NCBI RefSeq assembly: GCF_002995495.1
Contig: NZ_PVZV01000002.1
Span: 558,001-622,000 of the forward strand
DNA length: 64,000 nt
Direction: 5' to 3'
Origin: Actinocorallia populi
GTDB taxonomy: Bacteria > Actinomycetota > Actinomycetes > Streptosporangiales > Streptosporangiaceae
A model generated the notes under the pieces. That model had not been told where the DNA came from and did no database searches. It saw only the letters and a program-made list of their open reading frames with translations. A program made the translations under genes and the position numbers. Position 1 is the first letter of the stretch; every line of letters starts with the position of its first letter. This document shows positions 8,217 to 9,765 of the stretch, piece by piece.

Positions 8217-8495
8217 ATGAACAAGCGTGAGCTGGTCGACGCGATCGCCGAACGGCTGAGCGGCAGCAAGAAGGAGGCCGCCGAAGCCGTGGACGCGGTC
8301 CTCGACACGATCCAGGCGACGGTGGCCAAGGGCGAGAAGGTGGCCATCACGGGATTCGGTTCGTTCGAGAAGGCGGACCGCCCCGCCCGTACCGCGCGGA
8401 ATCCCGCGACCGGCAAGACGATCGAGGTCCCCGCGACCTCGGTGCCCAAGTTCAAGGCCGGGGCCGACTTCAAGAACCTGGTCGCGGGCAAGTAA
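8217..8495 (+). CDS. hup: HU-family nucleoid protein
   Basis: 92-aa HU protein that bends and compacts DNA as a dimer. It has the two N-terminal helices (MNKRELVDAIAERL), the GFGSF hinge and the DNA-binding arm region with ARNPATG, ending at the usual HU length. It therefore lacks the lysine-rich C-terminal tail of HupS-type proteins. RBS GGAGG with 8-nt spacing precedes ATG 8217. Monocistronic: own promoter upstream and hairpin terminator downstream. Confidence 0.97.
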   Translation: MNKRELVDAIAERLSGSKKEAAEAVDAVLDTIQATVAKGEKVAITGFGSFEKADRPARTARNPATGKTIEVPATSVPKFKAGADFKNLVAGK

Positions 8496-8514
8496 CACCC
8501 GCCCGCCGGAAGAG

Positions 8515-8547
8515 CGCCCGCACGTTCCGCGTGCGGGCGTTCCCTTT
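8515..8547 (+). terminator. Rho-independent terminator of hup
   Basis: CGCCCGCACG (8515-8524), 5-nt loop, CGTGCGGGCG (8530-8539), followed by the T-rich TTCCCTTTC. A 10-bp perfect stem plus pyrimidine tail. Confidence 0.85.
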
Positions 8548-8646
8548 CCCGGGCGTCCGCCGGAGCGCCCTCGCGGACGCTGCCACGAGGCGGCGCGGTC
8601 CTCGGGCCTGTTTCAAAGTTCTCTGCGGAAGAACTTTGGCGACTCC

Positions 8647-8676
8647 TTGCGCTTAAATGAACACCCTGTGTAAGGT
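8647..8676 (+). promoter_or_regulatory. Promoter inside the inverted-repeat element
   Basis: -35 TTGCGC (8647-8652), 18-bp spacer, -10 TAAGGT (8671-8676), in a locally AT-richer stretch. No coding sequence follows it on this strand before the convergent gene, so it would drive a non-coding transcript. Confidence 0.45.
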
Positions 8677-8682
8677 TTGTGG

Positions 8683-8899
8683 TGGGGCTGCAAGGAGCCC
8701 CGGCCGGGTCAACCTTCATCGACCCCATCCCGCACTGACGGGGGAAGGGCAGGAAGGCGGCCGCTCTCACCTGCGAGCGGCCTCTGCCCGGCCGATTCCG
8801 GAACGCCAGTGGCGCCGACCCCGGACAGGGGCCCGCAAGGGACCCCGCCGGACAGACGCCATCGGGCACCGGACTGTTTCAGCGACTTTGAAACAGACC
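8683..8899 (+). ncRNA. Candidate structured small RNA, about 215 nt
   Basis: Predicted to start about 7 nt after the -10 at 8671-8676 and to end at the hairpin CTGTTTCA-gcgactt-TGAAACAG (8874-8896). Between them are a perfect hairpin GGCCGCTC/GAGCGGCC, with arms around 8759-8784, and a stem capped by a GNRA-type loop, GGGGCCC-GCAA-GGGaCCCC. No reading frame with codon bias is present. It does not resemble SRP RNA, tmRNA or RNase P RNA as far as can be judged by eye. Family unknown; existence inferred from promoter, structure and terminator. Confidence 0.35.
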
Positions 8900-9100
8900 T
8901 TAGGGCAGGGGGAGCGTCGAGAGGGTGAGCGCGGTGACGCGCTCGCCGTCCCAGGCGAGGTTGACCCGCTGGCCGAACCGCAACAACCGCAGCCCGCCCG
9001 CGTCGAAGGCCGCGGCGTCGAACGGCAGCTCGCTCCCGTCGTCGAGCAGCACGCTGCCCGAGCGTCCGGCGGGGTCGAAGTCCTTCACGGTGGCCTGCAT
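8900..9100 (-). CDS. Cold-shock-like small protein
   Basis: 66-aa protein beginning MQATVKDFDPAGRSGSVLLD, a compact beta-barrel of the cold-shock/OB type: it keeps the glycine-rich strand pattern but lacks the classical KGFGF RNP1 motif. The start at 9100 is the conserved one; longer upstream frame is not supported. It lies 23 bp downstream of cofC on the same strand, so it is likely cotranscribed. Nucleic-acid binding is inferred. The TAA stop directly abuts the inverted-repeat element. Confidence 0.75.
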   Translation of the reverse strand: MQATVKDFDPAGRSGSVLLDDGSELPFDAAAFDAGGLRLLRFGQRVNLAWDGERVTALTLSTLPLP

Positions 9101-9123
9101 GCCCGGCAGCCTACCCGGCCGCC

Positions 9124-9765
9124 TCAACGGGGAAGCGCCGCCAGGATCCGCTCGGCGACCGCCGCGGTGTGCGGCCCGACGCCCAGCTCCAGAGCGGCCC
9201 GCAGGTCGGCCAGGGTGTCGACGTCCGTCCGCACGCTGGGGACCGGCCCGGGAGCGAGCTCCGGCACGCCCAGGGCCAGGTGGCGGGCGCGGGAGGCCCC
9301 GCCGAAGGCCGGGGCGAACACCTCGCCGGGGCGGGCGCTGTAGAGCACCGTGCCGATCCCGGCGCGGTCGGGGAGGAAGGCGCGGGGGAGGAGCTCGGCC
9401 TCGGCCAGCACGGCGTGCAGCTCCGCGGGCCGCAGCGCCGGGAGGTCCGCCTGCAGCGCGGCGACGCCCAGGCCCAGCGGCCCGGCGTGCTCCGCGCCCC
9501 GCCGCAGCGCCTCGTTCAGACCCGGCGCGGGGCCCTCCGGGACGACCAGCGCGCCCAGCCCGCCGAGCCTGCCGGCGGCCAGCGGATCTGCGGTCACGAC
9601 CACCACGGCGCCCACCGCCGGGCAGCGCAGCGCCGCGTCCACGGTGTCCGTCGCGACGGCCAGGGCGAGCTCGCTCCGGTACGCCCCGGCGGCGGCCGCC
9701 AGCCGGGACTTGCCCAGCTCCAGCCGCTTCACCGGAACGATCATTGACCAGAGGTTCTTTGACAT
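9124..9765 (-). CDS. cofC: Phosphoenolpyruvate/2-phospholactate guanylyltransferase
   Basis: 213-aa CofC/FbiD enzyme, which transfers GMP from GTP to phosphoenolpyruvate (or 2-phospholactate) to start the side chain of coenzyme F420. N-terminal nucleotide-binding motif IVPVKRLELGKSRL, then ALQADLPAL and a GIGTVLYSA segment typical of the family. The start is uncertain between ATG 9765 and ATG 9744; no Shine-Dalgarno is seen. A TAATCT about 9 nt before 9765 may be a leaderless -10. Divergent from the acyltransferase gene. Presence implies the organism makes F420, as actinomycetes do. Confidence 0.9.
   Translation of the reverse strand: MSKNLWSMIVPVKRLELGKSRLAAAAGAYRSELALAVATDTVDAALRCPAVGAVVVVTADPLAAGRLGGLGALVVPEGPAPGLNEALRRGAEHAGPLGLGVAALQADLPALRPAELHAVLAEAELLPRAFLPDRAGIGTVLYSARPGEVFAPAFGGASRARHLALGVPELAPGPVPSVRTDVDTLADLRAALELGVGPHTAAVAERILAALPR

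Follow-up and report, generated by a model that had tools for sequence, protein, structure and literature searches.

A 297-bp inverted-repeat element beside hup in Actinocorallia populi as a probable non-autonomous derivative of a TnpB transposon with an IS5-like parent

What occupies the space between hup and a small convergent gene in Actinocorallia populi? The window, i.e. the whole stretch of 64,000 nucleotides analysed here, holds an inverted-repeat element at this junction, for which the original prediction offered two readings, a MITE-like unit and a small RNA of actinobacteria not yet described. Our data indicate that both were partly right at once, the body being a structured RNA without earlier description, namely the omegaRNA of a TnpB transposon. 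The segment 8604-8900 is probably a non-autonomous internal deletion of such a transposon, bounded by terminal inverted repeats (TIRs), the complete form of which occurs elsewhere with an IS5-like DDE transposase. This reading is built on features that can be read from the sequences compared: shared ends, an internal deletion, a covarying scaffold, intact tnpB genes in trans, a parent found elsewhere, absence from congeners and a preference for CTAG. The features of the locus are collected in Table 1.

Table 1. Features of the element and its immediate surroundings, with positions counted from the first nucleotide of the window
Feature	Position	Strand	Remark
hup, HU-type DNA-binding protein (upstream gene)	8217..8495	+	
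Left flank/target remnant CTCG	8601..8604	.	CTAG expected, cf. L010, L011, L013, L015; A to C at 8603
Whole non-autonomous element, 297 bp	8604..8900	+ (orientation of parent tnpB gene)	dispersed copies; sharp right boundary; congeners without insertion
Left terminal inverted repeat GGGCCTGTTTCAAAGT	8604..8619	+	terminal-repeat search of genome
Left-end hairpin CAAAGTTC...GAACTTTG	8614..8638	+	folding
Left-end block CTTTGGCGACTCCTTGCG	8635..8652	+	common to tnpB-bearing copies (CTTTGGTGACTCTCTGCG); includes -35-like hexamer
Promoter-like pair TTGCGC-18-TAAGGT	8647..8676	+	putative promoter role; hexamers 8647-8652 and 8671-8676
omegaRNA (reRNA) scaffold	8684..8903	+	in relatives overlaps tnpB 3' end and right end
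Stem P1 GGGGCT-gcaagg-AGCCCC	8684..8701	+	codes GLQGAL in tnpB-bearing copies
Stem P2, 5' strand GGCCGGGT	8702..8709	+	long-range; pairs with 3' strand GCCCGGCC at 8786..8793 (+)
GCAA-capped stem CCC-GCAA-GGG	8832..8841	+	
Right-end hairpin CTGTTTC...GAAACAG	8874..8896	+	
Right terminal inverted repeat AGGTCTGTTTCAAAGT (read on -)	8885..8900	-	
Convergent 66-aa gene	8900..9100	-	TAA stop supplied by the element's CTTAG
TAG directly after right end	8901..8903	.	TA, part of the CTAG target and presumably duplicated; G, first target base rightward
Predicted guide segment GGCAGGGGGAGCGTCGAGAG (flanking DNA)	8904..8923	+	guide position by analogy with ISDra2 (PMC8612924)

The inverted repeat pairs 8600-8619 with 8885-8904, and the earlier count of 14 matching bases in 15 at the ends was correct over 8605-8619, as was the claim of a hairpin at each end. 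The extent first assigned to the inverted-repeat element (8605-8899, 295 bp) had to be enlarged slightly to that of the homologous unit, which is flanked by a mutated TA at 8602-8603 and by TA at 8901-8902. On the right, the boundary was sharp and read CTTAG in 22/22 relatives in an alignment of the shared segment. The original prediction would have counted a lack of further genomic copies against itself. A blastn-type search, however, detected DNA matches at six further places in the same genome, seven with the window copy; two were near full length (C12, 95%, and C5:252698, 85%), and the remaining four covered only 8685-8904. The genome contains three miniature and four longer copies, dispersed as in a MITE family. 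Searching it for the terminal repeats returned 11 sites, as compared with one for the reversed control, and all except two of them lay at copies already known. Further characteristics of a MITE are the size of 297 bp, the lack of a transposase gene, TIRs matching at 14/15 positions and ends in common with the 2.2-kb tnpB-bearing copies.

In the four longer copies a TnpB-type ORF lies directly upstream of the shared scaffold, intact in three and frameshifted in one. Because the left ends of these tnpB-bearing copies carry the same block, CTTTGGYGACTC..TGCG, as the left end in the window, the window copy is, by this comparison, an internal deletion in which the left end was joined to the tnpB tail and the right end. 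The statement that no protein is coded holds, since the 228-aa frame at 8657-9343 is a relic of the TnpB C-terminus read through into the flank (56% identity over TnpB residues 635-691).

The TnpB proteins of the longer copies are divergent and about 640-700 aa long. Pfam PF07282 (Cas12f1-like_TNB) was matched by all four, in two cases with a score slightly below the curated cut-off, and NCBIfam guided_TnpB by both copies tested, below its cut-off. Across 17 TnpB rows, every one of which contains PF07282, the RuvC D/E/D residues D354, E508 and D587 and the zinc-ribbon cysteines C560, C562, C577 and C580 were invariant. The parent nuclease hence combines the RuvC D/E/D residues, zinc ribbon and TNB domain by which TnpB and OMEGA nucleases are recognised. 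Comparison with PDB sequences yielded nothing useful with a 3-row profile and marginal matches with the 17-row profile (best E 0.005 for LaTranC, 0.17 for ISDra2 TnpB). Foldseek top matches of an AlphaFold model of low confidence (pLDDT 59) were Cas12f, ISFba1 TnpB, Cas12m, LaTranC and ISDra2 TnpB; despite the weak model, this comparison of folds was more informative than the sequence profiles.

TnpB, from which Cas12 descends, has been described in elements of the IS605 (Y1) and IS607 (serine) types, where it protects peel-and-paste transposons from loss. In the present family, the transposase is of another kind. Scanning GTDB genomes with the TnpB alignment revealed 18 relatives in Streptomyces, Actinacidiphila and Acrocarpospora; the lineage is rare (4/201 family genomes, 3/395 class genomes), and the plasmid collections searched contained no relatives. 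Two complete elements of 3.1 kb from Streptomyces (L061:1-3129 and L064:1-3124) are bounded by CTAAGAG...CTCTTAG and comprise a divergently oriented transposase gene, a TnpB of about 650 aa and the omegaRNA, which reads out of the right end. The L061 transposase, encoded divergently to tnpB, contains HTH_Tnp_4 (PF13613) and DDE_Tnp_4 (PF13359) / DDE_Tnp_1 (PF01609) and is IS5-like. An HTH_Tnp_4 / DDE_Tnp_4 transposase inside matching TIRs, found in L061 and the TIR-matched complete loci, places the parent in the IS5 family; an assignment to IS607, with its serine recombinase TnpA, is opposed by the complete relatives, which have the DDE transposase at the transposase position. A transposase or its remnants occupied the same position in 14 of the 18 loci and in both independently sampled class genomes, and a remnant was located there in the family member L092. 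Contig ends L148 and L149 indicate that the L064 element is apparently present in at least two copies.

These observations bear on a different origin, a PATE of the IS200/IS605 type with a Y1 (HUH) TnpA as its mobilising enzyme. The terminal hairpins would suit it, and so would the succession of left end, tnpB tail and right end, since a PATE-like element of Halanaerobium consists of a left end, the last 58 nt of tnpB and a whole right end (PMC7290912). PATEs (Haloquadratum, PMC3119063; Halanaerobium, PMC7290912) are likewise non-autonomous elements with a core deletion, and the Halanaerobium example retains the omegaRNA region as the window element does. They have no TIRs, however, and depend on IS605-type Y1 transposons (PMC3119063), whereas the window element has true TIRs and a DDE parent. 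The TIRs, the DDE transposase in complete relatives and the absence of Y1_Tnp (PF01797) from the genome speak against an IS605-type PATE with CTAG as its TAM, and we consider a Y1-mobilised origin highly improbable.

Only diverged or degraded relatives of the transposase remain in the genome of A. populi, and no intact related one was found there. Current mobility of the element in this genome is therefore doubtful. A degraded IS5-like transposase relic of the same genome (G000:C1:652636-652788, L077) may be a remnant of the autonomous partner.

The body of the element (8684-8903) is, on comparative grounds, the scaffold of a TnpB guide RNA (omegaRNA/reRNA). For either strand, folding of the element was far more stable than that of dinucleotide shuffles (z -5.0 and -5.8), and the GNRA-capped stem noted before was confirmed as CCC-GCAA-GGG. 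The scaffold is conserved in 22 aligned loci, which share a GGGCTGCAAG-AGCCC hairpin, the motifs CCGRGTCAACC and CTCTGCYCGG, and CTTAG at the right boundary. Compensatory changes among the relatives were observed in the P1 hairpin and in the long-range stem P2. In the 22 loci, 94.4% of cells were paired, compared with 88.2 after shuffling, and the covariation score was 0.242, compared with 0.137 for the shuffled alignments (0/500), a test limited by sequence relatedness; slid controls, which retain this relatedness, collapsed to 0.04-0.10. The covariation asked for in the original prediction is thus present across the 22 loci. A match to a known RNA family, which would have counted against that prediction, did not emerge: Rfam returned 0 families at the gathering threshold and only chance-level matches with E>1. 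Of the small-RNA reading, the structured RNA stood, but the link to TnpB and its omegaRNA had not been recognised.

Left boundaries of the insertions read YTA, usually CTA, and right boundaries TAG in 22/22 aligned loci, which fits, at the level of sequence, an insertion into CTAG with duplication of TA. TA on both sides of a CTAG target suits most loci; the left TA in the window is mutated, and the loci were compared without a same-species empty site. In 11/22 insertions, the window's included, the convergent flanking gene ended exactly at the TAA made by CTTAG, flanking genes being defined by strong coding bias (third-position GC >= 0.9, >= 260 codons open). Since CTAG contains the stop codon TAG, insertion swaps one stop codon for another. 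The remark on the contact between the element's end and the convergent gene's stop codon was true and finds its explanation here, because insertion into CTAG yields TAA via CTTAG. This preference for CTAG and stop codons accounts for the harmless insertion of such elements in GC-rich genomes. One tnpB-bearing copy (L011, G000:C5:323500-331500) sits exactly at the TAG stop of the transposase gene of another, unrelated IS.

The junction of hup with the convergent gene was free of the element in the congeners G001 and G002, and the element was absent at this junction in family members too. It reads ...GGCTCAGGGCAGGGGGAGCGTCGACAG in G001 and ...CCTTAG/GGCAGGGGGAGCGTCGAGAG in the window, the congeners being too diverged to fix the TA duplication to the base at this site; under TA duplication, an empty hup junction would be expected to read ...CTAG-GGCAGGGGG... 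For the other copies, synteny with the congeners was too poor for joined-flank searches to reveal empty sites. A free-standing gene for a small RNA, belonging to the hup-cofC region and having no connection with transposons, would share with the present locus its structured RNA, intergenic position and promoter-like hexamers. Both ends are common to tnpB transposons, however, and dispersed copies at unrelated loci together with the empty sites in congeners and family members refute this reading, to which we give next to no credence.

The element had also been credited with its own promoter and terminator. The hexamers of the proposed sigma70-like promoter are present, but a consensus scan detected no sigma-70-type promoter; the pair is only weakly suggestive. 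Its spacing of 18 recurs in the longer copies, where CTGCGT-18-CAGGAT precedes tnpB within the left end, and, by its position, the pair would place the start of an RNA on the scaffold's first base. The terminator claim was unsupported: the scan found none inside the element, and the only terminator-like hairpin nearby, a strong one at 8512-8542 just 3' of hup, lies outside.

In ISDra2, the reRNA spans the 3' end of tnpB together with the right end, and its guide consists of about 16 nt of flank (PMC8612924). We placed TAM and guide start by analogy with this system. The guide so predicted (8904-8923) occurs once in the genome and differs at one position from the empty site of the congener G001; the right flank from 8904 on would then match the element's own empty site. 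No second exact match was found among alternative targets in the genome, and matches with three mismatches equalled the control, i.e. chance level. This speaks against a domesticated regulator, in which the RNA, with TnpB or a nuclease-dead relative (cf. TldR), would target another locus and control a host gene. A stable structured RNA and intact TnpB in trans would be compatible with such a role, but the catalytic residues of the nuclease are intact and the flank differs at each copy, making it very unlikely.

We favour as the most likely mechanism, by analogy, a trans loading of intact TnpB and cutting of element-free sites. An IS5-like transposase, since lost or decayed in this genome, would have moved the element, with duplication of TA, into the CTAG at which the convergent gene had its stop codon. 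The promoter-like sequence of the left end may drive an RNA that begins near 8683 and continues past the right end into flanking DNA. This RNA would be bound in trans by TnpB made from the intact copies, with a guide of roughly 8904-8923. By cutting copies of the site that lack the element, the complex would help the element to be retained or copied back. TnpB-mediated retention has been shown for IS605 elements (PMC11870625).

The element could instead be an inert fossil, a dead MITE in which the omegaRNA segment is kept merely as part of the right end and is neither transcribed nor used by TnpB. The lack of a related intact transposase in the genome, the mutated left target base in the window (CTCG), the consensus scan without a promoter and the decayed left terminal repeat of the copy L014 are in line with this reading, which we regard as a real possibility, though not a probable one. 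Among the three miniature copies, however, each of the three pairwise comparisons showed higher conservation of the omegaRNA than of the left end (P = 0.002, 0.0015 and 3e-5), and 57-58 of the 61 positions invariant in tnpB-linked scaffolds were retained, 3-4 being different. This conservation could partly come from right-end or transposase binding, or from gene conversion with tnpB-bearing copies. Also opposed to a fossil is the survival of three intact tnpB genes without a linked transposase, which fits selection on the nuclease-guide pair.

Insertion sequences of the IS5 family (DDE_Tnp_4) and MITEs resemble the present family in their HTH_Tnp_4 and DDE transposase, their TIRs and a short presumed TA duplication at CTAG. 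To our knowledge, ordinary IS5 elements encode neither TnpB nor a guide RNA. The TnpB-omegaRNA system of ISDra2 (PMC8612924) is similar in that the RNA extends over the tnpB 3' end and right end, the guide (predicted here) comes from the right flank and the target lies beside the insertion motif. In contrast to ISDra2 (PMC8612924), the TnpB described here, with its 640-700 aa, has diverged too far to be matched with confidence to solved TnpBs by sequence, the motif is probably CTA(G) and the scaffold has no Rfam match. A parallel for the capture of a TnpB homologue by a TIR/DDE transposon, with non-autonomous versions, is found in the Fanzor1-bearing DDE transposons of eukaryotes (PMC3627910, PMC10711439), which differ in host and in protein clade from a bacterial TnpB in an IS5-like element. 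Bao and Jurka (PMC3627910) described TnpB-only elements as devoid of TIRs and TSDs and reported Fanzor1 from DDE transposons of eukaryotes. In the literature searched we found no description of TnpB in a bacterial DDE transposon; the novelty of this combination is provisional.

We give about even chances to a broader proposal, that a bacterial lineage of IS5-like, cut-and-paste DDE transposons captured a divergent TnpB whose omegaRNA reads out through the right TIR, and that omegaRNA-only, guide-carrying offshoots of about 300 bp borrow TnpB in trans as RNA-guided parasites and police their own empty sites. If true, the association of TnpB with a bacterial DDE transposase would mean that RNA-guided retention can go with more than one chemistry of transposition. 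It would have a counterpart in the eukaryotic DDE transposons that bear Fanzor1, and the compact nucleases would gain a divergent member whose guide RNA has a new fold. Copies reduced to the omegaRNA would constitute a natural test of non-coding elements exploiting TnpB in trans.

Other internal deletions of tnpB, fused to the omegaRNA hairpin, were observed in L073 (Streptomyces carpinensis) and in L075/L146 (Streptomyces sp. NRRL F-5122); for this reason, miniaturisation seems to have occurred repeatedly. Rearrangement in L073 extends to the omegaRNA itself. A truncated relic in the genome of A. populi (G000:C11:146595, L088) comprises the right end and omegaRNA of the same family. An even shorter element, CTAGGGTCTGTCC...GGGACAGGACTTAG, was found in another genus (L017, G003:C192, about 2261-2425); it keeps only the first omegaRNA hairpin and the GTCAACC motif.
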